DNA of 64,000 nucleotides from Photobacterium iliopiscarium (GTDB taxonomy: Bacteria > Pseudomonadota > Gammaproteobacteria > Enterobacterales > Vibrionaceae), in assembly GCF_003026395.1 (NCBI RefSeq), contig NZ_PYOO01000015.1, positions 1-64,000 of the forward strand. The letters run 5' to 3'. The position numbers were made by a program, and so were the translations under genes. Positions 1 to 53,796 of this stretch are shown piece after piece; positions within the stretch are counted from its first letter, which is position 1, and each line of letters begins with the position of its first letter. The notes beneath the pieces were generated by a model, which was given only the letters and a program-made list of their open reading frames with translations, was not told where the DNA came from and searched no databases.

Positions 1-359
<359 letters not shown>

Positions 360-402
360 GCTTTCCTAAAATAAGCTTTATTATAATAACGTCATAAAAA
401 AA

Positions 403-428
403 TGCGCAGAGCGCCTACACTCTGCGCA
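403..428. repeat. Inverted repeat between frmA and fghA
   Basis: A perfect 9-bp inverted repeat (TGCGCAGAG at 403-411, CTCTGCGCA at 420-428, 8-nt loop) lies between the frmA stop and the fghA start at 452. No T-run follows on the + strand, so it is not a classical terminator for frmA. It may be an RNA-processing or partial attenuation hairpin that sets the ratio of the two enzymes. Confidence 0.5.
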
Positions 429-451
429 GCTTTAACGAGAGACTAAATCCA

Positions 452-1300
452 ATGCCTTTAGAAAATATTAGTTGTAACAAAAGCGCTGGCGGCTGGCATA
501 AGCAATATACGCACCGTTCAGAAGTCCTAAATTGTGATATGCGTTTTGCTATTTACCTGCCACCACAATGTGCAGCAGGACAAAAAGTACCCGTTATTTA
601 CTGGTTATCAGGCCTAACATGTACTGATGAAAACTTTATGCAAAAAGCAGGTGTACAACGTATGGCTGCTGAGTTAGGTGTCGCTATTGTTGCTCCAGAT
701 ACTAGCCCTCGTGGCGAAGGTGTTGCTGACGATCCACAAGGCGCTTATGACTTTGGTCTTGGTGCTGGTTTCTATGTTAATGCAACAGAAGCTCCCTGGA
801 ACCGTCATTACCATATGTATGATTACATTGTGAATGAATTACCAACATTGATTGAAGCACACTTCCCAGTGACAGCTCAGCGTGCAATCAGTGGTCACTC
901 AATGGGTGGACACGGTGCATTAATGATTGCTTTACGTAATCCTGAACGTTATAGCTCAGCGTCAGCATTTAGTCCTATATCGAATCCAATGAATAGTGCT
1001 TGGGGCCAAAAAGCGCTTACTGGTTATCTTGGTAGTAATACTAAAAACTGGAAGCAATATGATTCAAGTGAATTGATGCGTATTGCTGAAGTTAAATTAC
1101 CAATGTTGGTTGATCAAGGCACGCACGATAACTTCTATAATGATGGTCAGCTTCGTACTGAAACCCTTGTTGCAGCAGCGGAAGCAAATAGCTACCCACT
1201 AGAAGTGCGTATGCAAGATGGTTATGACCATAGCTACTACTTTATGGCATCATTTATTGAAGATCATTTACGTTTCCACGTTGATAACTTTAATAAATAA
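452..1300 (+). CDS. fghA: S-formylglutathione hydrolase
   Basis: This is a 282-residue esterase of the FghA/FrmB/esterase D family. It hydrolyses S-formylglutathione to formate and glutathione, the second step of glutathione-dependent formaldehyde removal. The nucleophile elbow GHSMGGHGAL places the catalytic serine at residue 150. Asp226 (in GTHDNFY) and His260 (in DHSYYF) complete the triad, at the same numbering as I recall for human esterase D. The oxyanion/entry motif WLSGLTCTDENF is at about 51-62. The length is normal for the family. The ATG is preceded by GAGAG. It sits 92 nt after the dehydrogenase gene on the same strand, with only an inverted repeat between them, so the two are probably cotranscribed. 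Confidence 0.96.
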   Translation: MPLENISCNKSAGGWHKQYTHRSEVLNCDMRFAIYLPPQCAAGQKVPVIYWLSGLTCTDENFMQKAGVQRMAAELGVAIVAPDTSPRGEGVADDPQGAYDFGLGAGFYVNATEAPWNRHYHMYDYIVNELPTLIEAHFPVTAQRAISGHSMGGHGALMIALRNPERYSSASAFSPISNPMNSAWGQKALTGYLGSNTKNWKQYDSSELMRIAEVKLPMLVDQGTHDNFYNDGQLRTETLVAAAEANSYPLEVRMQDGYDHSYYFMASFIEDHLRFHVDNFNK

Positions 1301-1349
1301 CCGCTAATTTATTAAACTCCTTTTTTGCAGACAGGGTTTAATAAGACAC

Positions 1350-1388
1350 AAAAAGCCTCAAACAGTTTACCTGTTCGAGGCTTTTTTT
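1350..1388. terminator. Bidirectional rho-independent terminator
   Basis: A stem built from AAGCCTC..ACAG and CTGT..GAGGCTT is flanked by five A on the left and seven T on the right. It therefore works for fghA (+) and can also serve the AbgT gene arriving from the minus strand. Confidence 0.85.
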
Positions 1389-1441
1389 CGTTAACGATAA
1401 TTATTTATTAATACTCACTATCGTTATTCAGCTCTAATTAT

Positions 1442-3001
1442 TTACATACTGTAAGTGTAAGGCGCTTGAACACCTAGAGGAATGCCTAGGGTCCAGAATA
1501 CTAATAGGAAGATAGTCCAACCAATTAACATTGCAATTGAGTACGGCATCATCATTGACGCTAAGGTACCAATACCTGAACTCTTAACATAACGTTGCAT
1601 GTAAACCACCACTAATGGGAAGAACACCATCATTGGTGAAATAATGTTAGAGACAGAGTCACCAACACGGTAAGCCGCTTGAGTTAATTCAGGTGAAATA
1701 CCTACAGCCATTAACATTGGTACCATGATAGGACCAATCAATGCCCACTTAGCAGACGCTGAGCCCACCAATAAGTTAACACTGGCTGTTAGTAAAATCA
1801 TACCAACGATGGTGACTTGACCCGGTAAGTTCATTTGTTGCAATAATTGCGCACCAGAAAGTGCTAATAGCGTACCTAAGTTTGATTGCGTAAACGCCAC
1901 CAAGAACTGAGCAATAAAGAACACCATTACCATAAAGCCAGCCATACCCGCCATGGTAGTCGACATCGCTTTAATCACATCACCGCTTTGCTTAAATGTA
2001 CCTGCAACTTTACCGTAGATAATACCGGGAATAACAAACAGAATAAAAATCAACGGTACAATAGATTGCATTACTGGTGCATTAAAGGCAGCAACTTCAC
2101 CCGTTGGCGAACGTAATGGCGATGTTTCAGGCCATAGAGCAGCAACTAATAGCATGATACCCACAACCATTGTCCAACCAGCGTATGAGAATGCTTTACT
2201 TTCTAATGGAGTAAAAGAACCCATATCAGGTGCTTCTTCTGCATCTTCATCAATCGCTGTTTTTTGTAAACGAGGCTCAATTACTTTATCGGTGATGTAC
2301 CAGCCAATACCCACAATAATGAACGATGATAGACCAGTGAACATTAGGTTTGCTAACGGGTTAACAATGTAAGTTGGATCCATGATGCGTGCAGCTTCTT
2401 GGGTAAAGCCCGCTAATAATGGGTCGATACCAGAAGGAATAAAGTTAGCAGAAAAACCACCAGAAACACCAGCAAACGCCGCTGCAATACCCGCAAGAGG
2501 ATGACGACCAGCAGCGTGGAAAATGATACCACCAAGAGGAATAACCAACACATAACCTGCATCAGCAGCAGTGTGCGATACAATTGCCACTAAAATAAGC
2601 ATCGGCGTAAGTAGCTTAGCTGGCGTAACATTTAGCATCTTTTTTAGGCCAGTATTAATAAAGCCTGACGCTTCAGCAACACCAACACCTAACATAGCAA
2701 CTAATACAATACCTAATGGCGCAAACCCAGTGAAGTTTTTCACCATGTTCGCCAAGAAACTTGCCATCGCATCGCCAGTCAGCAAGTTATTAACGTGTAC
2801 CACATCTTTCGTCACTGGGTGCACAAGACCAAAATCAAACTGTGATAACACAGCCGAAAGAATCCAAACAGTTACTAACCCCCAAAAGAACAGTAATGCG
2901 GGATCAGGTATTTTATTACCTGCACGCTCAATACCATTTAAAAACTTGTCCATCGCACTCGTAGATGGAGGTGGTGCTTGCTTCAGTGTTTTTTCGTTCA
3001 T
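1442..3001 (-). CDS. AbgT-family transporter
   Basis: This is a 519-residue polytopic inner-membrane protein of the AbgT/MtrF family. Known members take up p-aminobenzoyl-glutamate or export sulfonamide-like antimetabolites; the substrate here cannot be told. The N-terminal helix follows the segment NKIPDPALLFFWGL. Family-typical stretches include SHTAADAGYVLVIPLGG, GGFSANFIPSG and ASAKWALIGPIMVPML, and the C-terminal helices include MMPYSIAMLIGWT. About 12 hydrophobic segments are visible. Length matches the family (about 500-520). It stands alone, convergent with fghA and separated from guaA by 338 nt. Confidence 0.9.
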   Translation of the reverse strand: MNEKTLKQAPPPSTSAMDKFLNGIERAGNKIPDPALLFFWGLVTVWILSAVLSQFDFGLVHPVTKDVVHVNNLLTGDAMASFLANMVKNFTGFAPLGIVLVAMLGVGVAEASGFINTGLKKMLNVTPAKLLTPMLILVAIVSHTAADAGYVLVIPLGGIIFHAAGRHPLAGIAAAFAGVSGGFSANFIPSGIDPLLAGFTQEAARIMDPTYIVNPLANLMFTGLSSFIIVGIGWYITDKVIEPRLQKTAIDEDAEEAPDMGSFTPLESKAFSYAGWTMVVGIMLLVAALWPETSPLRSPTGEVAAFNAPVMQSIVPLIFILFVIPGIIYGKVAGTFKQSGDVIKAMSTTMAGMAGFMVMVFFIAQFLVAFTQSNLGTLLALSGAQLLQQMNLPGQVTIVGMILLTASVNLLVGSASAKWALIGPIMVPMLMAVGISPELTQAAYRVGDSVSNIISPMMVFFPLVVVYMQRYVKSSGIGTLASMMMPYSIAMLIGWTIFLLVFWTLGIPLGVQAPYTYSM

Positions 3002-3339
3002 GGTAATTCCATGTCCTTATGCTGGTTATGTTTGCTATGCGGATCTACTTACATATAGTCGATCTCATTTTTTGTCCAAATCAAATATGAATATTCGCTG
3101 AACGATCGTAATGAAATTACCACAACAAACAGTGTTATAAACCTACTAATAACACCTACTAACCACTACATATTGTAACCAATCATTAATACGACACTTA
3201 CAAAAAACATAATTCAAACAAATGAGTAACAACTAACAAATAGAAAGATAAATCTTACTTTAATAGCATTAAATAGCAGCCATAAAAAAAGCACCCGTAG
3301 GTGCTTTTTATTATTCAATTAGTACTAATAAACCTGTAA
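3002..3339. other. Intergenic region upstream of the AbgT gene
   Basis: This 338-nt AT-rich stretch holds the presumed promoter of the AbgT gene (minus strand) and the guaA terminator at its right end. No gene, operator or repeat was recognised elsewhere in it. Confidence 0.5.
3283..3310 (-). terminator. Terminator of guaBA
   Basis: AAAAAGCACC / GGTGCTTTTT form a short perfect stem around CGTA. On the minus strand the stem is followed by a run of T, 30 nt after the guaA stop. Confidence 0.8.
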
Positions 3340-4923
3340 TTATTCCCACTCAATCGTTGCGGGTGGCTTACCAGAAATATCGTAAACAACACGTGAAATA
3401 CCATTGACTTCATTGATGATACGGTTCGATACTTTACCTAAGAAATCATAAGGTAAATGTGCCCAATGCGCGGTCATAAAGTCGATAGTTTCTACCGCAC
3501 GTAGCGATACAACCCAATCATACTTACGGCCATCGCCCATCACGCCCACTGAACGTACAGGTAAGAACACAGTAAATGCTTGTGATACTTTATTGTAAAG
3601 ATCAGCGTTATGTAGCTCTTCAATGAAGATTGCATCTGCGCGACGTAGTAAGTCACAGTATTCTTTCTTTACTTCGCCTAATACACGGACACCTAAACCA
3701 GGCCCAGGGAATGGGTGGCGGTATAACATGTTATAAGGCAAACCAAGTTCTAGACCGATCTTACGTACTTCATCTTTAAATAATTCACGCAATGGCTCAA
3801 CTAAGCCCATTTCCATATCATCTGGCAAACCGCCAACGTTATGGTGTGATTTAATCACGTGCGCTTTACCTGTTTTAGATGCTGCTGATTCGATCACATC
3901 AGGATAAATCGTACCCTGTGCTAGCCACTTAGCATTTTTTAATTTCTTTGATTCTTCATCAAAGATATCAACGAACACATGACCGATGATCTTACGTTTA
4001 GCTTCAGGCTCATCAATACCTGCAAGTGCATCTAAGAAACGATCTTCAGCTTTAACATGGATGATTTTCAGACCAAAGTCATCACCAAACATGTCCATAA
4101 CTTGTTGGCCTTCGTTAAGACGAAGTAAACCGTTATCAACAAATACACATGTTAGCTTATCGCCAATCGCGCGGTGAATAAGCATTGCAACCACTGATGA
4201 ATCAACACCACCAGACAGACCAAGGATAACTTCATCGTCACCGACTTGCTCTTTGATACGTACAATTGCATCTTCAATAATATTGGCTGAAGTCCATAGC
4301 TTTTCACAGCCACACACATTCATCACGAAGTTTTCAATTAACTTCATACCTTGACGCGTATGCGTTACTTCTGGGTGGAATTGCACCCCGTAGAAGCGTT
4401 TTTCTTCATTTGCCATCGCAGCAAATGGACAGGTATCTGTTTCAGCAACTTTAATGAAATCCGCTGGAATTTCGACAACTTTATCGCCGTGGCTCATCCA
4501 TACATCAAGTAATGGCGTACCATCAGCAGCAACCGCATCTTGAATATCGTTTAAGAAAGCAGTCTGCTCAACAATCTTAACTTGCGCATAACCAAATTCA
4601 CGCTCATCAGAACCTGCAACTTTACCACCCAGTTGTTCTGCCATAGTCTGCATGCCGTAACATACACCAAACACAGGAACACCCGCTTCAAATACATACT
4701 GTGGTGCGCGAGGAGAACCCGCTTCAGTTACGCTTTCAGGACCACCAGAAAGAATAATACCGTTTGGATTGAAATCACGGATATCAGCTTCATCAACATC
4801 CCAGCTCCAAAGTTCACAATAAACGCCGATTTCACGGATACGACGGGCAATTAACTGAGTGTATTGCGAACCAAAATCCAAAATAAGAATACGTTGGTCA
4901 TGAATATTTGCGGTAGTGGTCAT
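3340..4923 (-). CDS. guaA: GMP synthase (glutamine-hydrolysing)
   Basis: This 527-residue enzyme converts XMP, ATP and glutamine to GMP, the last step of guanine nucleotide synthesis. The N-terminal class I glutamine amidotransferase domain (about 10-205) has Cys88 in GVCYGMQ and the His/Glu pair in GVQFHPEVT. The ATP-pyrophosphatase domain follows with its PP-loop [10 protein letters not shown] at about 235. The C-terminal dimerisation/XMP-binding domain ends in PPATIEWE, as in E. coli GuaA. It lies 113 nt downstream of guaB on the same strand and shares its terminator, the usual guaBA operon. Nothing is missing or unusual. Confidence 0.98.
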
Positions 4924-5036
4924 TATAGAACTATCTCAAAAATTGAATGTATTGGGGGCTATATCTAGCCCCGATTTTATCTAACTTCGCAACTTAGGCA
5001 ATCGTTTTCGTTCAACGAATACTGACTGCTTGATAA

Positions 5037-6500
5037 TTAAGCTGTACGGTAGTTAGGCGCTTCTTTTGTGATCATCACATCATGTACGTGTGACTCTTTC
5101 ATGCCTGCGCCTGAAATCCGTACAAATTCAGCTTTAGTGCGTAAGTCTTCAATTGTTGCAGAGCCTGTTAGACCCATGCTTGAACGTAAACCACCCATTT
5201 GCTGGTGAACGATTTCTTTCATCAAACCTTTGTAAGCAACACGGCCTTCAATACCTTCAGGTACAAGCTTATCTGCTGCGTTATCTGATTGGAAATAACG
5301 GTCTGAAGAGCCTTTTGACATTGCGCCAAGTGAGCCCATACCACGGTATGATTTATAAGAACGGCCTTGATACAGTTCAACTTCACCCGGTGCTTCTTCA
5401 GTACCTGCGAACATTGAGCCAACCATTACACATGATGCACCCGCAGCAATCGCTTTACATAAATCGCCAGAATAACGAATACCGCCATCAGCAATAACCG
5501 GAATACCGTATTGATCAGCCACTGATGCAGCTTCTGAAATCGCAGTAATTTGTGGAACACCCACACCAGTAACAATACGTGTAGTACAGATTGAACCAGG
5601 GCCGATACCCACTTTAACAGCACTTACGCCAGCTTCAATTAATGAGCGAGCACCGTCTGCGGTTGCAACGTTACCGCCAACAATAGGAAGATTAGGAAAA
5701 GCGGCACGTGTTTCACGAATACGTTGTAAAACGCCTTCTGAATGTCCGTGAGATGAATCGATAAGTAATACGTCAACACCCGCTTCAACCAATGCCGCAA
5801 CGCGTTCTTCATTACCCGCGCCAGCACCAACAGCAGCACCAACACGTAAACTGCCACGCTCATCTTTACACGCGTTTGGTTTACGTTCTGCTTTTTGGAA
5901 GTCTTTCGCAGTGATCATGCCTTTTAGACGGAAATTATCGTCAACTAACAGTACTTTTTCAACACGGTACTGTTGCATAATCGCTTCAACTTCTTCGCGA
6001 GATGCACCTTCTTTTGCTGAAGCTAACTTCTCTTTAGAAGTCATTACTTCTTCAACTTTAATTGAAAGGTCAGTAACAAAACGAACATCACGGCCAGTAA
6101 TAATACCAACTAATTCATTGTTATCTGCAACCACAGGATAACCTGCAAAACCATTTTCTAAGGTCAGACGTTTAACATCTGCGATAGTGTTATTTGGTTT
6201 AACTGTAACAGGTTCTGCAACAACGCCTGCTTCGAACTTTTTAACCATGCGAACTTCAGCCGCTTGTTGTTCGATAGACATATTCTTGTGGATAAAACCA
6301 ATGCCGCCCTCTTGAGCAAGTGCAATGGCTAGGCGACCTTCAGTCACTGTGTCCATAGATGCTGATAGCATAGGAATGTTAAGAGCAATCTCTTTCGTGA
6401 GACGAGTGCGCAGATCGGCAGTGTTAGGTAGGACTGTAGAATGAGCAGGAACTAGTAATACATCATCAAACGTCAACGCTTCTTTTTTAATTCGTAACAT
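5037..6500 (-). CDS. guaB: IMP dehydrogenase
   Basis: This 487-residue enzyme oxidises IMP to XMP with NAD, the committed step to GMP. The TIM-barrel catalytic domain is interrupted by a CBS pair (about residues 95-205). The catalytic loop GPGSICTTR places the nucleophile at Cys305, and the flap motif GSSDRYFQ is present. The ATG at 6500 gives the canonical N-terminus [14 protein letters not shown] and is preceded by GTGAGA at a suitable distance. A GTG four codons upstream overlaps that ribosome-binding site and is rejected. guaA follows. Confidence 0.98.
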
Positions 6501-48847: not shown

Positions 48848-49354
48848 ATGAAACAACTGATTGTGACCATTATTGGTAAAGACAAACCAGGGCTTGTAGA
48901 GCAGTTATCCGATACCGTCTATTTTAATCATGCCAATTGGCTCAGCAGTTCACTTAGCCAACTTGGCGGGCAGTTTGCAGGAATAATACAAATAGACGTT
49001 GCAACGGAACACTTTCAATCACTTCGCCAAGCATTAACTGACATTGAAGCATTACACATTCACATCGTAGAAGATCACACTCAAACCGTGACCACTTATG
49101 TCACTCAACAGCTTACCGTAACAGGTAATGATCGTCGGGGCATAGTAAAAGAAGTAACACGCCATTTAGCTCAACTTGGCGTCAATATTGCCAAACTTAA
49201 AACCAACACCCAAAGCGCACCTAACTGGGGTTACCCTATTTTTGTGGCTGAATTTCAGTTACACACTCCCCTTGAAATCAGTGCAGCCATGATTCAACAA
49301 CAATTAGAACAGTTAGCTGATGATTTAACTGTCGATATTGATACACTTAGCTAA
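48848..49354 (+). CDS. GcvR-like tandem ACT-domain protein
   Basis: This 168-residue protein has two ACT domains: about 1-75 (MKQLIVTIIGKDKPGLVEQLSDTV) and about 88-165 (QLTVTGNDRRGIVKEVTRHLAQLGVNI). This is the arrangement of GcvR, which in E. coli blocks GcvA activation of the glycine cleavage operon. Whether this paralogue does that is not shown. I chose the ATG at 48848 with AAGGA upstream; the frame is open 29 codons more but the extra residues (histidine-rich NKHHHHV) are unlike the family and reach the pstC promoter. It is divergent from pstC and borders the accessory islet. Confidence 0.8.
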   Translation: MKQLIVTIIGKDKPGLVEQLSDTVYFNHANWLSSSLSQLGGQFAGIIQIDVATEHFQSLRQALTDIEALHIHIVEDHTQTVTTYVTQQLTVTGNDRRGIVKEVTRHLAQLGVNIAKLKTNTQSAPNWGYPIFVAEFQLHTPLEISAAMIQQQLEQLADDLTVDIDTLS

Positions 49355-49625
49355 ATCAATCAGGTCGCTTACATTAAAGCAATGTAGCGCGAATCGTGCT
49401 GCTTTAACATGCCATGGTAAACATCTGTGATAAATAAGAACATTTAACCATGCTACACAATGTCGGTTTTACGCTGTTTTAATAACAATTAAGAGTAACC
49501 GCGCTGTTGGCTGATTTCATTACACTTTTAACAAAATAGACATGTTCTATTTTGGCTATTCTAGCGGATGAAAACATATTAAAACGAGGCTTATAACCTC
49601 GATTTTAAATGAAGCTCATACGCGT

Positions 49626-49653
49626 AATGCGGATTAGATGCATACTGTTAAAT
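49626..49653 (+). other. dif-like sequence 1
   Basis: AATGCGGATTA, six bases (GATGCA), then TACTGTTAAAT. The arms match 9 of 11 bases each of the Vibrio dif arms as I recall them (AGTGCGCATTA and TTATGTTAAAT). The site lies just before the first islet unit. An alternative left arm (CATACGCGTAA at 49617-49627) better matches sites 2 and 3 but would leave a 15-nt centre. Confidence 0.35.
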
Positions 49654-49799
49654 ACAGCCATTTCTAACTCAAAGTCATACTACGAGCTGAGTGATCGTAT
49701 TTGTGGTCTTAAAATCGTTTCTAGGGGCTATTTAACGGGTATTTGGGTCATGTCAGACTGATAAGCGATTTATGGCGAGATTGATTGATGAAAACGGAC

Positions 49800-49858
49800 A
49801 GATTTAAAATAAATATATTTCTAGGGGTTTTGCCTAAATTTAGATTTATTTTAAATCT
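49800..49858. repeat. 15-bp inverted repeat, motif copies 1 and 2
   Basis: AGATTTAAAATAAAT at 49800-49814 is repeated exactly in inverse orientation at 49844-49858, 29 nt apart. A third exact copy lies at 51676-51690. The inner ATTTAAAATAA resembles a XerD-arm complement (ATTTAACATAA) at 10 of 11 bases. Confidence 0.75.
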
Positions 49859-49865
49859 AAGGTGT

Positions 49866-49886
49866 AAGGTCGCTTATCGCGGCCTT
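49866..49886 (+). terminator. Terminator-like hairpin at the start of unit 1
   Basis: AAGGTCGC and GCGGCCTT with a 5-nt loop, followed by TGTTGTATCTGGACGTTA. The same arrangement, including TATCTGGACGTTA, recurs after the next gene at 50782-50820. Confidence 0.55.
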
Positions 49887-50014
49887 TGTTGTATCTGGAC
49901 GTTACAGCGTACCTAATTATATTAAAATGCATATTGTTTAATATAGTTATTTTTAGAGAGTAATATAAACACATATAAGATTGTTAAATGTGATTTATGT
50001 ATTTAGGAGGGAAC

Positions 50015-50728
50015 ATGGCGACAATATTCGCGTTCGTTAAGTTGTTTGAGAAGAAAGAACATGCAGAAGATTTCGTGAGCGGGAAATTGTTCATGAATAC
50101 AATTAAATCATTTAAAGAATATCGAGATGAATCTGGAGAATTAAGAGGAGATGATCATGAAGGCATCATTGCTATGTATCAGCCTAGCCAGCTTGGTGAC
50201 ATAACGTTTGGTGAGATTTCAATTCCATCCTCCGAACTAGCTAGCCCGATTGTTGTTCATGGTGATCATTTATTATCTCAAAATGTTTTTTGTCTCTATT
50301 CATTAAATAGTCGGGGCCATGAATCTATCTCTGCTGACACTATTAAAGAATTTAAAACGACTCTAGAACTTCATAAATCATGCTTTGGGTTAGGAAAGTA
50401 TTGTGTTGTCGTAATCAATGTAACTGAATTTATAGATCGCTGTAAGATAGCAATAGAAACTCTAGAACTTCAAGGAAGTTGGGGGTTAGTAGATTACTTT
50501 AATGAACATGAGTTCCATGGCTCTATGCCAGAAGATAGCTTGGGTTATCAAAAACGTAGTATGTTCAGAGAGCAAAGAGAGTATAGGATTAAAATCGATA
50601 CTAGGCAGAAAAATCCAAATTATTATATCTTAGATGTTGGGGATTTATCCGACATTACAATGCTTACAACTCCCGAAGAGTTTAATGAAAAAATAGAACT
50701 TAAATTACCAGATGGAACAAGTGCATAA
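50015..50728 (+). CDS. Hypothetical protein of the islet
   Basis: I do not recognise this 237-residue soluble protein. The ATG at 50015 has AGGAGG 6 nt upstream; an ATG at 49997 overlaps that site and is rejected. The N-terminus IFAFVKLFEKKEHAEDFVSGKLFMNTIKSFKEYRDE, then RGDDHEGI, recalls a loose group of hypothetical proteins from accessory regions that begin with a short beta strand and a FxNxxxxFR..GD..EG pattern. The middle has VFCLYSLNS and the C-terminal part has REQREYRIKID, possible catalytic or binding patches. No signal peptide or transmembrane segment is visible. It is followed by its own terminator, and flanked by dif-like sequences. A defence or toxin role is only a guess from context. 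Confidence 0.75.
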   Translation: MATIFAFVKLFEKKEHAEDFVSGKLFMNTIKSFKEYRDESGELRGDDHEGIIAMYQPSQLGDITFGEISIPSSELASPIVVHGDHLLSQNVFCLYSLNSRGHESISADTIKEFKTTLELHKSCFGLGKYCVVVINVTEFIDRCKIAIETLELQGSWGLVDYFNEHEFHGSMPEDSLGYQKRSMFREQREYRIKIDTRQKNPNYYILDVGDLSDITMLTTPEEFNEKIELKLPDGTSA

Positions 50729-50781
50729 GAGGGAGTTGAATCGGTGATTTTACAAGTTGTATCTGTAACATGAATTTCCGC

Positions 50782-50808
50782 AAGGTCGCTATTGGCGACC
50801 TTTATTAT
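50782..50808 (+). terminator. Terminator of the hypothetical gene
   Basis: AAGGTCGC (50782-50789) and GCGACCTT (50795-50802), perfect stem with a 5-nt loop, followed by TATTATAT and the repeated TATCTGGACGTTA (50808-50820). Confidence 0.75.
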
Positions 50809-50925
50809 ATCTGGACGTTAGGTGGTCTCGGGTCACACAAGATGTATACTATTTCCTAATAGTTAACAACCTTAATAGAGCAAATAATCTATCCAATTTC
50901 TGTCCAAAAATAAGTTAAGTTTGCT

Positions 50926-50954
50926 AGTACGCATAAATAGATTTGATGTTAAAT
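50926..50954 (+). other. dif-like sequence 2
   Basis: AGTACGCATAA, seven bases (ATAGATT), TGATGTTAAAT. The right arm matches 10 of 11 bases of the XerD arm TTATGTTAAAT; the left arm matches 9 of 11 of Vibrio or E. coli XerC arms. It is followed immediately by a terminator hairpin and then by the BrnTA promoter. Very similar to site 3. Confidence 0.45.
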
Positions 50955-50955
50955 G

Positions 50956-50978
50956 ACCGCCCATCGAGGCGGTTTTTT
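50956..50978 (+). terminator. Terminator between dif-like site 2 and brnTA
   Basis: ACCGCC (50956-50961) and GGCGGT (50968-50973) with six T. It insulates brnTA from transcription entering from the left. Confidence 0.75.
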
Positions 50979-50983
50979 GGTAT

Positions 50984-51030
50984 TTGTAGGTTAGTTTGTA
51001 ATTTGTTATAGTTTAACTACAATGTAGTTA
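50984..51030 (+). promoter_or_regulatory. brnTA promoter and palindromic operator
   Basis: TTGTAG (50984-50989) and TATAGT (51007-51012) with a 17-bp spacer form a good promoter. Directly after it lies a perfect palindrome TAACTACA-A-TGTAGTTA (51014-51030), ending 10 nt before the brnT ATG. By analogy with BrnTA and other ribbon-helix-helix antitoxins it is the likely autorepression operator. Confidence 0.7.
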
Positions 51031-51040
51031 CTGTGTAATT

Positions 51041-51337
51041 ATGAGTTATCTACAATTTGAGTGGGATCCGAATAAAGCGGAAAGTAATATTCGAAAGCAT
51101 GGCATTACTTTTATAGAGGCTGAATCAGTTTTTAGTGATGAATGTGCTCGTGTGATACCTGACCCTGACAGCTCATATGGTGAAGAACGCTTCATCATTA
51201 TGGGGTTGAGTGAAAAACATAACACTCTCGTTGTATGTCATTGCTATAGAGGTGATGACGAAAGGATTCGAATTATTTCAGCTCGGAAAGCAGAAAAACG
51301 AGAACGTAAACAATATGAGGAGTTTCGTTATGCGTGA
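51041..51337 (+). CDS. brnT: BrnT-family toxin
   Basis: This 98-residue protein is a BrnT/DUF497 toxin, an RNase with a RelE-like fold. Typical segments are FEWDPNKAESNIRKHGITFIEAESVF, RFIIMGLSEKHNTLVVCHCYRGD and IRIISARKAEKRERKQYEE. Family residues thought to be catalytic (the Lys/His of the N-terminal pattern and the Arg-Ser/Ala-Arg stretch) are present. It precedes and overlaps the antitoxin gene by 8 nt, the usual toxin-first BrnTA order. The unit is bounded by dif-like sequences. Confidence 0.92.
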   Translation: MSYLQFEWDPNKAESNIRKHGITFIEAESVFSDECARVIPDPDSSYGEERFIIMGLSEKHNTLVVCHCYRGDDERIRIISARKAEKRERKQYEEFRYA

Positions 51338-51539
51338 TCAATATGATTTTTCAAACTCAATGGCTAATCCATACGCGAAAAAAGTAAAGAAGCAGATCAC
51401 TATTCGACTCGATGATGATGTGGTGACTTACTTTAAAGATTTATCTGAAAAGAATGGTATCCCATACCAAAACTTAATTAATCTTTACCTAAAAGATTGC
51501 GCATCAAAAAATAAAGAATTAACAATGGATTGGCAGTAA
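51330..51539 (+). CDS. brnA: BrnA-type antitoxin
   Basis: This 69-residue antitoxin contains a ribbon-helix-helix DNA-binding region (KKQITIRLDDDVVTYFKDLSEKNGIPYQNLINLYLKDCA) after a short N-terminal segment that would contact the toxin. The ATG at 51330 has GAGGAG upstream within brnT and overlaps the toxin stop by 8 nt, so translation is coupled. A longer open frame upstream is only the toxin region in another frame. It would neutralise BrnT and repress the palindrome at 51014-51030. Confidence 0.9.
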   Translation: MRDQYDFSNSMANPYAKKVKKQITIRLDDDVVTYFKDLSEKNGIPYQNLINLYLKDCASKNKELTMDWQ

Positions 51540-51551
51540 AATCTTACAGTA

Positions 51552-51580
51552 AAGGTTGCTCATATGTAGCGGCCTTTTTT
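51552..51580 (+). terminator. Terminator of brnTA
   Basis: AAGGTTGCT and AGCGGCCTT pair over nine positions with two G-U pairs and run into six T. It resembles the hairpins at 49866 and 50782 in sequence and placement. Confidence 0.8.
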
Positions 51581-51609
51581 ATGCCTGGTTGATACGATTT
51601 AGCGCTGTT

Positions 51610-51638
51610 AATACGCATAAAGATCTAATATGTTAAAT
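51610..51638 (+). other. dif-like sequence 3
   Basis: AATACGCATAA, seven bases (AGATCTA), ATATGTTAAAT. It shares ACGCATAA and TGTTAAAT with site 2 at the same spacing and matches the XerD arm at 10 of 11 bases. A hairpin follows directly, as at site 2. Confidence 0.45.
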
Positions 51639-51665
51639 ACCGTCCAATTTAAGGCGGTATTTTTG
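51638..51665 (+). terminator. Hairpin after dif-like site 3
   Basis: TACCGTC and GGCGGTA arms with a T-run (ATTTTT). It is homologous in sequence to the hairpin after site 2. Confidence 0.6.
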
Positions 51666-51675
51666 CATGTGAGGT

Positions 51676-51690
51676 AGATTTAAAATAAAT
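51676..51690 (+). repeat. Third copy of the 15-bp motif
   Basis: AGATTTAAAATAAAT, identical to 49800-49814 and in the same orientation. The two direct copies bracket about 1.87 kb that includes the hypothetical gene and brnTA. Confidence 0.7.
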
Positions 51691-51699
51691 GTAACATTA

Positions 51700-51720
51700 G
51701 TTACGGTATTTTACCGTAAC
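51700..51720. repeat. Inverted repeat before the relic gene
   Basis: GTTACGGTA (51700-51708) and TACCGTAAC (51712-51720), perfect 9-bp arms around three T. It is placed like an operator or leader hairpin for the short reading frame at 51740. Confidence 0.5.
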
Positions 51721-51739
51721 TACAAAAAAGGCGATTAAG

Positions 51740-51852
51740 ATGGCTAACGCATTAAAAAATGAGCGTTTTAAAGATCACCTGTAAAAGATAATTACACAGA
51801 ATTATTTACAGGGTCTGTAGATTCAATTAATAAGTACAACCCGCACGAATAG
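51740..51852 (+). pseudogene. Frameshifted small gene relic
   Basis: An ATG with AAGGCG 9 nt upstream opens a 14-codon frame (MANALKNERFKDHL, stop 51782-51784). Another frame, from 51781, continues with protein-like sequence for 23 codons (VKDNYTELFTGSVDSINKYN..) to a stop at 51850-51852. Together they look like one small coding sequence broken by a frameshift, probably the remnant of a third islet unit. I do not recognise the product. Confidence 0.4.
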
Positions 51853-51861
51853 ACATAAGCT

Positions 51862-52806
51862 CTAATGCCCATACAAGACATCAAAATCAGGAATGTTCTG
51901 CTCCCAAATAGGCAAATCTTCGCCAACAATTGACTTTAGAATCTCGATAAATCGCTTCGTTTTAATAGGTGCATCTCGATGTGGGTACACCGCATAAATA
52001 GTTCCAAAATCATCAATATTCAAATGAGTCATAATAGGTATTAGTTTGCCTTCAATGATCTCATCATTAAGCATTTGCGCAGAAACAACCGCCAATGTAT
52101 TTCCCGCCAATACACTTTTGACCATCATTTCTACATCATTAACTTTATAAATAGCATTAAGCTTAAATTGATGTTCGTTTTTATTTTCATCAAGATAGTT
52201 AAATTTATCAATTAATAATCCCGGTGCCGAATAAATGGTTGCGGGTAACGTTTCTAATCTTTTAATTGTCTCTATTTTTCCGTGTTGTTTAATAAAATCA
52301 GCAGAAGCGACAATTAATAAACGACTTCGAGCAATCTTTCTTGATATCAAGCTGGAGTTTTTAGCCTTACCAATTCGAAACCCAATATCAAAACCTTCTT
52401 GCACTATATCAACCATTCTATCTTCTAATCTAAGTTCACACTTCACATCAGGATATTGATGCTGAAAAATAGAAATCGCGTCTTGTACATATTGACGACC
52501 AAACATCATAGAACTGGTGATCTTCAATGTTCCTTTGGGCTCTGAACGATAATTTTGAGTTAAGCGATGAGTATTTTCTAATAGTTCTCGCAATTGCCGC
52601 GCTTGATTTACCATTTCACTACCAACAGCGGTTAATGATAACGAACGCGTAGTACGATTAAGTAATCGAACTCCCAGCTCCTTTTCTAAACGGCTTATCT
52701 GTTTTGATATTACAGAGCGATCTATATTTTTCTGCTCTGCCACATTAGTAAAAGAGCCCTGTTCTGTCACTTCAAGCAATAATAATAAACGTTCAGAAAA
52801 ATCCAT
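51862..52806 (-). CDS. LysR-family transcriptional regulator
   Basis: This 314-residue regulator has an N-terminal winged HTH (about 1-62: LLLLLEVTEQGSFTNVAEQKNIDRSVISKQISRLE) and a C-terminal effector domain with the CrgA-type features GTLKITSSMMFGRQYV and GFDIGFRIGKAKNSSL. The effector is unknown. It is divergent from an enoyl-CoA hydratase-family gene with 177 nt between, so it probably controls that gene. Its end is 10 nt from the relic at the islet edge. Confidence 0.9.
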   Translation of the reverse strand: MDFSERLLLLLEVTEQGSFTNVAEQKNIDRSVISKQISRLEKELGVRLLNRTTRSLSLTAVGSEMVNQARQLRELLENTHRLTQNYRSEPKGTLKITSSMMFGRQYVQDAISIFQHQYPDVKCELRLEDRMVDIVQEGFDIGFRIGKAKNSSLISRKIARSRLLIVASADFIKQHGKIETIKRLETLPATIYSAPGLLIDKFNYLDENKNEHQFKLNAIYKVNDVEMMVKSVLAGNTLAVVSAQMLNDEIIEGKLIPIMTHLNIDDFGTIYAVYPHRDAPIKTKRFIEILKSIVGEDLPIWEQNIPDFDVLYGH

Positions 52807-52983
52807 ATAAGCCTTATGAGAATAAAGAAATAAGCCATCGGTGCAATATTAGCATCAATCTTATGCTCATAACGGTGTTTTTCTCATCTAATGGATTGCT
52901 TATAGTTAACTCAATGACGAAAAGGAAGTCATTTAACGTTACCGTATTTAGCGAGCCTAGTAGGCTATTTAGAGGAAATTATT

Positions 52984-53796
52984 ATGAAAACACTATCAAT
53001 TACTAGCCAAGGTGGTATCGCAACAGTAACCATCAACAATCCACCAGTGAATGTATTAACTATTGATCTAATTAACGAAATTAATGCGTTTGTACTTTCC
53101 TTAAAAGACGACCGAGATACAAAAGTGGTTGTATTTAAATCACTGCACGAAACGTTCTTTTTAGCACACCTTGATCTTAATGTGATTAACGGTACTCAAG
53201 GTGGACAAGCAGCTTCTATTGAGTTCAATCACATGATAATGAACATCAAAGCGATGAAACAAGTCTCTGTTGCCGTGGTTGATGGCGTAGCTCGTGGCGG
53301 CGGTGACGAATTTGTAATGGCATGTGATCTTGCTTATGCCACTGAAAATGCAGCATTTGCTCAACCAGAAATTCACGTCAATATTCCAACTGGCGGCCAA
53401 GGTGCGGTTCAATACGCAAGAAGAATGGGCAAAAACAAAGCATTACAAGCGCTATTATTAGGTAACGACTTCACTGCACAACAAGCTGAAAAACTAAATA
53501 TTATTACTCAGTTTGTGCCTAAAGCAGAAATGAATGCCTTTTTAGAAATGACACTTGACATCATTAGCAGCTTAGAAATTCGTGATATCGTGATGTACAA
53601 AGAAATCATCGCAGCGTCAATTACAGACGAAACCGCAGGCGCAGAGCTAGAGTTACGCTACTTTTTAGAGCGTGCAAAAGAAGAAAAAACCGCGATGATT
53701 ATCTCTACATTTCTAAAACATGGCGGACAAACTGAGCGTGAAGCAAAAGATATGCAAGGTATCTTTATGGACACAGCTGCCGAATTATCAAAATAA
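52984..53796 (+). CDS. Enoyl-CoA hydratase/isomerase-family protein
   Basis: This 270-residue protein has the crotonase fold. The N-terminal TVTINNPPVNVLTIDLI and the oxyanion segment VVDGVARGGGDEFVMACDLAYA are present. The two glutamates used by hydratases (in GGGDEF and in FAQPEIHVNIPTGGQG) are kept. The usual AGAD acyl-binding turn reads LAHLD (FFLAHLDLNV), which is less common. The substrate is unknown and no beta-oxidation partner is adjacent. AGAGGAAA lies upstream of the ATG. It is divergent from the LysR gene and ends in a hairpin. Confidence 0.88.
   Translation: MKTLSITSQGGIATVTINNPPVNVLTIDLINEINAFVLSLKDDRDTKVVVFKSLHETFFLAHLDLNVINGTQGGQAASIEFNHMIMNIKAMKQVSVAVVDGVARGGGDEFVMACDLAYATENAAFAQPEIHVNIPTGGQGAVQYARRMGKNKALQALLLGNDFTAQQAEKLNIITQFVPKAEMNAFLEMTLDIISSLEIRDIVMYKEIIAASITDETAGAELELRYFLERAKEEKTAMIISTFLKHGGQTEREAKDMQGIFMDTAAELSK

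Follow-up and report, generated by a model that had tools for sequence, protein, structure and literature searches.

One-way arrays of gene units with one recombination site per unit are held to be the mark of integrons and of their own integrase. Units of a different kind, often toxin-antitoxin pairs, are exchanged among Acinetobacter plasmids as dif (or pdif) modules, which lie between sites made of a XerC arm, a spacer and a XerD arm; these sites must alternate in orientation (PMC13141974), the modules leave in pairs because C/D and D/C sites alternate (PMC13141974), and chromosomal islands of such modules are on record in one strain (PMC12907356). Vibriophages that exploit Xer recombination (VGJphi, TLCphi and CTXphi) insert their genomes at dif1/dif2; the attP site of VGJphi is 29 bp long and integrates by XerC catalysis alone (PMC4246890), and Vibrio cholerae XerC cleaves dif at the border between arm and centre (PMC2533119). 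Here we examine a 64,000-nucleotide (nt) stretch of Photobacterium iliopiscarium DNA (positions 1 to 64,000 of contig NZ_PYOO01000015.1, hereafter the window), in which a first-pass annotation made from the sequence alone had noted an islet of gene units between three dif-like sites. We consider it probable that this islet is a chromosomal array of mobile cassettes, bounded by Xer-type sites in one orientation behind an anchor site, S1, and likely moved by the XerC and XerD proteins of the host. Among the papers listed in our literature survey, covered mostly by titles and abstract openings, we met Acinetobacter modules, integrons and vibriophages but no description of such arrays in Vibrionaceae; one study searched two plasmids of P. 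damselae for dif-like sites and reports none (PMC13347740, 2026).

Dif-like sites in the window and in the genus

The islet lies inside the pstC-pstS interval, between a gene that we take to be gcvR and a LysR-type gene (51862-52806), on contig C7 of a 43-contig, 4.3-Mb draft genome. A two-arm matrix trained on 27 sites, all from genomes other than the window's, recovers the three proposed Xer-type sites, S1, S2 and S3, at the places first noted (Table 1), with scores of 22.8, 27.9 and 21.6. With this leave-out matrix 2.56 Mb of shuffled window DNA gave 39 matches scoring at least 15, 8 of at least 18 and 1 of at least 20, and 354 kb of array-free Photobacterium DNA (loci L038-L066) gave none of at least 18. 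S1-S3 are non-random, Xer/dif-like sites. In other controls of the scan, 444,501 shuffled bases contained no match scoring 15 or more and 64-kb shuffles gave 0.3 each, and an earlier matrix gave 1.3 matches of at least 16 per 225 kb; because these controls disagree, we judge single sites on scores of about 20 and above. One further, weaker match in the window (score 17.1, minus strand, 41408) is probably due to chance. The 7-nt centre that had been described for the sites applies to S2 and S3, whereas S1 has the canonical 6 nt. A decayed fourth site, S1b, is probably present downstream of S1, as suggested by a blast alignment of 49852-49959 with L025 (1486-1593; 75%), S1b itself falling under the scan threshold. 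This site, the conserved stretches on either side of S1 and the single orientation of the sites were absent from the first-pass annotation.

Among the checks that this annotation had proposed were to find the true dif, to scan for further copies of the sites and to compare the pst interval across relatives. The first of these recovered AGTGCGCATTA TGTATA TTATGTTAAAT on contig C34 and AGTGCGCATTA TGTACC TTATGTTAAAT on contig C39 of the window's genome, which would be dif1 and dif2, names that rest on their sequences and on the presence of one such site on each of contigs C1 and C2 of P. phosphoreum; the islet is thus not at a chromosomal dif. The XerC-arm consensus of the array sites, AGTnCGCATAA, is near the XerC arm of dif1 and dif2, and the outer XerD arm, TGTTAAAT, is identical in array sites and dif1/dif2.

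Genome scans with a 45-site model show that the sites do not occur at random frequency. The window's genome holds 21 matches at E <=0.5, dif1 and dif2 among them. Seven sites are found on its 13.6-kb contig C19, which is probably a circular plasmid because its ends overlap by 127 nt. A match at E <=0.004 is found in 39 of 52 Photobacterium genomes, 12 of which have at least four and are referred to below as array genomes. In a search under harsher limits (E <=0.002, 38 candidates scored per genome), at least three matches occur in 8 of the 52 Photobacterium genomes versus 0 of 145 other Vibrionaceae genomes; 44 of the latter have a match but never more than two, as dif would give, and distant versions elsewhere could escape a model trained on Photobacterium. 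In part of the genus, then, genes are flanked by such sites both on plasmids and at several places on the chromosome. The suggestion of a chromosomal array away from dif in Vibrionaceae, with Xer-type sites bounding apparently mobile units, is supported. Acinetobacter modules are carried on Rep_3/OrfX plasmids; the replication protein of L027, the single array plasmid examined for this, matches RepM with 56.9 bits, below the cut-off of 250.

Orientation, composition and apparent mobility of the units

Scanning 55 loci recovered 157 sites in 48 of them (score >=17), a count that excludes dif1/dif2, TGT-centre matches with the dif XerD arm, and L025 and L026 (duplicates of L090 and L092). The loci were chosen for site or blast matches and are a non-random sample, orientation having been no criterion. 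All 108 pairs of neighbouring sites less than 6 kb apart have both sites on the same strand (0/108 inverted), and orientation is uniform in 39/39 multi-site loci. The 108 units so defined have a median site-to-site spacing of 1070 nt (range 77-5180); among the 107 examined, units with a run of N being skipped, the main open reading frame (ORF) points the same way as the sites in 61 and the opposite way in 24, and the remaining 22 lack an ORF of 70 amino acids. The centre is 6 nt long in 97 sites, 7 nt in 59 and 8 nt in 1, and of 57 sites with a 7-nt centre, 46 are followed by a hairpin. At 29 of the 39 loci the array opens with a site of the 6-nt GAT/TAT type, and at 23 it closes with one that has a 7-nt centre, which is a tendency only because circular plasmids and contig ends are counted. 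About 105 nt upstream of the anchors are conserved across plasmids, chromosomal arrays and an empty site in P. aquimaris (19 anchors, chosen by eye). Centre class is linked to the downstream head by 0.65 bits versus 0.34 bits for the upstream tail (152 of the 157 sites, after dropping duplicates, 8-nt centres and short or N-holding flanks), a mere hint on the position of the crossover because the classes are crude, with 60 of 71 GAT-type sites in the unclassified head class.

The 106 proteins encoded between sites were scanned against Pfam and PADLOC. The Pfam matches (the best 25 of 79 families) show a mixed cargo, with toxin-antitoxin families and Fic, a restriction enzyme of the Eco29kI type and a DNA methylase, a CAP12/Pycsar TIR effector, and reverse transcriptases; the best 25 of 270 PADLOC families are mostly generic reverse-transcriptase and helix-turn-helix models; a replicase and a MobA/MobL protein among the 106 look like plasmid backbone, not cassettes. 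The C19 plasmid (L014, 11023-12216) encodes a reverse transcriptase related to retron families, below the family cut-offs, and between two cassette sites of a P. damselae plasmid (L029, 4521-5066) lies a gene that its annotation assigns to the thermostable direct hemolysin family.

Comparison with relatives shows that matching flanks can enclose different units, that one unit recurs in three species and that one site stands empty. Neither of the outcomes that the first-pass annotation had named as refuting it, namely sites at random frequency and conserved sites whose genes are not mobile, is seen. Over 50925-51609 the BrnTA unit of the window matches P. toruni plasmid pCECT9189-1 at 98.5% identity, and each end falls in a bounding site; over 50930-51606 the unit matches contig C7 of P. 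aquimaris at 98.8%, where the left end is at the site and the right end is not comparable. Its coding part reaches 99.4% and 99.2%, respectively, whereas gcvR and pstS are far less similar between the window and P. aquimaris (80.6% and 86.1%). In P. carnosum TMW 2.2021 the left flank is 97.6% identical up to 49625 and the right flank 96.5% from 51616, and between them a 442-amino-acid ORF and a YafQ-RelB pair stand in place of orf237 and BrnTA; the two flanks come from separate contigs, the broken ends of which are consistent with a single copy of an insertion sequence (IS) with a 5-bp duplication, AGCGT. The right-hand identity starts within S3, of which P. carnosum retains the centre and XerD arm with a different XerC arm, and the break accordingly falls at the border between XerC arm and centre. 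P. aquimaris has a single empty site, AGTGCGGGATA GATGCA TTATGTTAAGG, which directly abuts the pstS terminator, and in P. piscicola and a metagenome-assembled genome (MAG) the last array site likewise enters the terminator sequence GTTAAGGCTAC. These comparisons of assembled sequences suggest that the units of the islet are apparently mobile.

The gcvR-like gene located 37 Photobacterium loci, comprising the eight nearest relatives (L030-L037) and 29 more distant loci (L038-L066). Arrays occupy the pst place in five of the eight (P. carnosum, a MAG, P. piscicola, P. phosphoreum and P. malacitanum); of the others, P. aquimaris has the single site without an array and two contigs stop short of the place. 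No site was found in the 29 more distant loci, one of which is a 4.4-kb contig. The gcvR product of the window is 98% identical to its P. carnosum counterpart, which places this Photobacterium close to P. carnosum.

Recombinases, an insertion sequence and competing explanations

The window's genome encodes both XerC and XerD over cut-offs. The integron integrase IntI exceeds its cut-off in 22 of 52 Photobacterium genomes, and none was found over cut-off in the window's genome nor in 8 of the 12 array genomes (drafts); a 298-amino-acid integrase encoded on C19 occurs in 8 of the 52 genomes (E <=1e-10) and in 2 of the 12. Because neither enzyme tracks the arrays, we infer that XerC and XerD are the best candidates for the enzymes of cassette exchange. 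In the mechanism that we propose, host XerC and XerD would recombine two array sites without FtsK, XerC making the first, and perhaps the sole, strand exchange at the border between its arm and the centre. A cassette or a run of cassettes would leave as a circle, which would insert into a plasmid or chromosomal site belonging to the same centre family, and plasmids would thereby ferry cassettes between species. VGJphi offers a precedent, by analogy, for a 29-bp site with XerC-only exchange that the arrays might likewise use; the order of strand exchange, the circular intermediates and present-day activity of the array are all presumed.

The window's genome contains an IS with a 454-amino-acid ISNCY transposase (NCBIfam ISNCY equivalog, 501 bits against a cut-off of 250). 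Four of its copies there are long and a shorter one is in tandem; the rest are small fragments. The IS ends exactly 5 nt from the XerC arm at dif1, at dif2 and at an array site on contig C6; a related IS ends 5 nt from an array site on contig C23, and the same distance separates an IS end from array sites of P. carnosum. The distance is 5 nt in all nine junctions compared in the window's genome, P. carnosum, P. phosphoreum and P. damselae, which were picked by eye for similar flanks. The flanking 5-bp duplications are exact at C6 (CACGT) and dif2 (ACCTC) and imperfect at dif1 (ACATC/ACCTC). Tandem IS remnants lie behind the IS copies at dif1 and dif2 (L067, 1110-2662, and L068), and dif seems to be a repeated landing place for this element. 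In Acinetobacter, pdif and dif sites have IS of the ISAjo2 group at a distance of 5 bp from their XerC arm, and contact with bound XerC was suggested by the authors of that study (PMC10132070). The Photobacterium element agrees with that group of the IS1202 family in its length of about 1.5 kb, its transposase (454 versus 441-457 amino acids), its TGT/ACA ends, its 5-bp duplication and its 5-bp distance from the XerC arm (PMC10132070), and we provisionally place it there on these features; it differs in its host, the word Photobacterium being absent from the main text of that report. By analogy, the presence of this dif-seeking IS beside dif and array sites alike may be read as an independent sign that XerC recognises both.

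One alternative, which the first-pass annotation had also raised, is that modules of the Acinetobacter pdif type, in which Xer sites form inverted pairs and C modules alternate with D modules, have arrived in Photobacterium. The plan of the sites, the cargo of toxin-antitoxin pairs exchanged among plasmids, the targeting by a similar IS and the chromosomal islands in one Acinetobacter strain all speak for it, and the 28-bp plan with a 6-nt spacer is that of 97 of the 157 Photobacterium sites. However, published modules must alternate (PMC13141974), and here 0/108 neighbouring pairs do so; the Photobacterium arrays are direct repeats with an anchor site, and 59 of 157 centres have 7 nt. We therefore regard an origin as pdif modules as very unlikely, and that part of the annotation is not supported. 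The layout is that of integrons, by analogy, in that short gene units follow one another in one direction behind an anchor-like first site. The attC sites of integrons have a core, GTTRRRY, and an inverse core box, RYYYAAC; GTTAAAT matches the former, and IntI is common in the genus. Yet the Photobacterium sites are dif-like, the cargo genes lie in both orientations, the distribution of IntI does not follow the arrays, and RYYYAAC occurs 40-150 nt upstream of 24 of the 156 sites with enough upstream sequence (15%) versus 13% of random stretches. The reading of the sites as attC moved by IntI, which also leaves the dif plan and the dif-seeking IS unexplained, was rejected on the IntI distribution and the near-random frequency of the box, and we hold it to be extremely improbable.

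A dedicated tyrosine recombinase acting in trans could also move the cassettes, and the 298-amino-acid integrase is encoded on C19 and on two other array plasmids; its occurrence in so few array genomes, the resemblance of array sites to dif of the same genome and the targeting of both by the IS make this explanation very improbable. A somewhat better case can be made that the sites serve plasmid dimer resolution and that homologous recombination swaps cassettes through the repeated sites, heads and tails. Sites of the cer/psi type have a core with accessory sequence on the XerC side; several array plasmids have an anchor-type site with a conserved upstream stretch, and heads and tails are repeated over 30-90 nt. 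Such short repeats are, however, poor substrates for RecA, the P. carnosum break lies inside a site at the border between XerC arm and centre, and site-specific insertion agrees with both the empty site and those right-end sites that lie in the pstS terminator. We consider this explanation unlikely, though to be taken more seriously than the other three. The alternatives are partly compatible with movement by XerC and XerD, and our estimates for them are not mutually exclusive. Unlike the vibriophages, which place whole genomes at dif1/dif2, the arrays consist of small gene units away from dif.

Several observations weigh against movement of these cassettes by host XerC and XerD. The inner 3 nt of the XerD arm are highly variable, with the TTA of dif in 12 of 157 sites, and 4 of the 12 array genomes (drafts) do carry IntI. 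The three centres in the window (GATGCA, ATAGATT and AGATCTA) all differ, and the classical two-strand Xer route should therefore not readily recombine any two of these sites, leaving it uncertain whether a cassette could now be excised by that route in one step. Taken alone, the empty site of P. aquimaris is a weak match to the model (13.7 bits, E 0.064), and its position carries the case. Among stretches shared in an all-against-all comparison (250 to 4000 nt, at least 80% identity, not touching a sequence end), only 72 of 210 ends are within 40 nt of a site versus 17% by chance, an excess of about two-fold, kept modest by the inclusion of plasmid backbone and chromosomal similarity. Recombination at the sites is deduced from assembled sequences, and homologous recombination through the shared heads and tails of 30-90 nt could swap cassettes.

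The arrays have sites that work like those of dif modules in a layout like that of integrons, and one defining feature of each of these systems failed to appear. We see even chances that they amount to an integron without an integrase, through which part of Photobacterium would exchange genes. In such a network the housekeeping pair XerC and XerD would build one-way arrays on plasmids and chromosomal anchors, toxin-antitoxin, restriction and other defence-like genes would spread between species, and the centre families GATNNN, ATAGATT and AATTTG would act as compatibility groups. If so, the machinery of chromosome-dimer resolution would suffice, any bacterium with XerC and XerD could host such a system, and in marine bacteria genes would be passing unseen between plasmids and chromosomes.

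The islet and its chromosomal neighbourhood

Table 1. Features of the islet and its left flank, in window coordinates.
Feature	Position	Strand	Sequence or basis
gcvR-like gene, left chromosomal neighbour	48848..49354	+	ORF list; probe that located the Photobacterium loci
'Anchor' flank upstream of S1 (approximate limits)	49521..49625	+	Alignment of 19 chosen anchors; blast to plasmid L027
Site S1 (anchor)	49626..49653	+	XerC arm AATGCGGATTA, 6-nt centre GATGCA, XerD arm TACTGTTAAAT
Conserved non-coding stretch after S1	49654..49911	+	91% to plasmid contig C19 of the same genome
Terminator-like hairpin of first (gene-less) unit	49866..49886	+	Terminator scan
Decayed site S1b (probable)	49915..49942	+	AATTATATTAA AATGCA TATTGTTTAAT; aligned with intact P. 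toruni plasmid site
orf237, 237-amino-acid ORF, cassette cargo	50015..50728	+	ORF list
Terminator-like hairpin, then repeated TATCTGGACGTTA tail	50782..50802	+	Terminator scan
BrnTA cassette, as conserved in other species	50925..51609	+	P. toruni plasmid and P. aquimaris comparisons
Site S2	50926..50954	+	XerC arm AGTACGCATAA, 7-nt centre ATAGATT, XerD arm TGATGTTAAAT
Hairpin directly after S2, usual head for 7-nt-centre sites	50955..50974	+	Terminator scan
brnT, ribonuclease toxin family	51041..51337	+	PF04365, 104.9 bits vs cut-off 34.5
brnA, antitoxin	51330..51539	+	PF14384, 34.9 bits vs cut-off 26.1
Site S3	51610..51638	+	XerC arm AATACGCATAA, 7-nt centre AGATCTA, XerD arm ATATGTTAAAT
Hairpin and conserved head after S3	51639..51693	+	91% to C19 over 51631-51693; common to P. 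carnosum

The flank upstream of S1 recurs at pst loci on chromosomes, on plasmids and beside the empty site of P. aquimaris. The non-coding unit that follows the anchor contains, at 49800-49858, an imperfect A+T-rich palindrome whose two 26-nt arms are 85% complementary, and which is also found on C19. The gene that had been left unrecognised, orf237, has no match in Pfam, NCBIfam or PADLOC; relatives with 27-39% identity are encoded on nine plasmid records from Photobacterium, Pseudomonas, Acinetobacter, Methylobacterium and Aquicella, and the annotation of the 11.6-kb Acinetobacter plasmid among them, which was viewed without scanning for sites, gives no link to dif modules. The BrnTA identification is borne out by both of its genes. 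A terminator for each unit had also been proposed, together with a second hairpin right after S2 and S3. The terminator scan recovers hairpins in the gene-less unit, after orf237 and after S2, whereas those 3' of brnA and of S3 are seen by eye and did not pass it, and the proposal of a terminator for each unit is thus confirmed in part; in all the scan gives five hairpin-T sites, two of which are both strands of one palindrome (49585-49601), against a shuffle mean of 0.9. The sequence after S3 is apparently the start of a truncated next unit.

In other Photobacterium a stretch of about 3.8 kb between gcvR and the place of the array contains two genes that by eye are ppk and ppx. Comparison with L036 (6568-10341) shows that this pair is missing from the window (49415-49514), as it is from the MAG (L031) and from P. 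carnosum. On the other side, the LysR-type gene and a gene that by eye encodes an enoyl-CoA hydratase (51862-53796) resemble an insertion adjoining pstS, and in P. piscicola (L074, 13430-13638) a diverged (76%) fragment of the pstS 3' end remains between the array and the LysR/enoyl-CoA-hydratase genes. Two stretches of a P. phosphoreum locus (L071, 1227-2158 and 8295-9579) both match one P. kishitanii array stretch (L104) with 89% identity, a possible duplication around the array.

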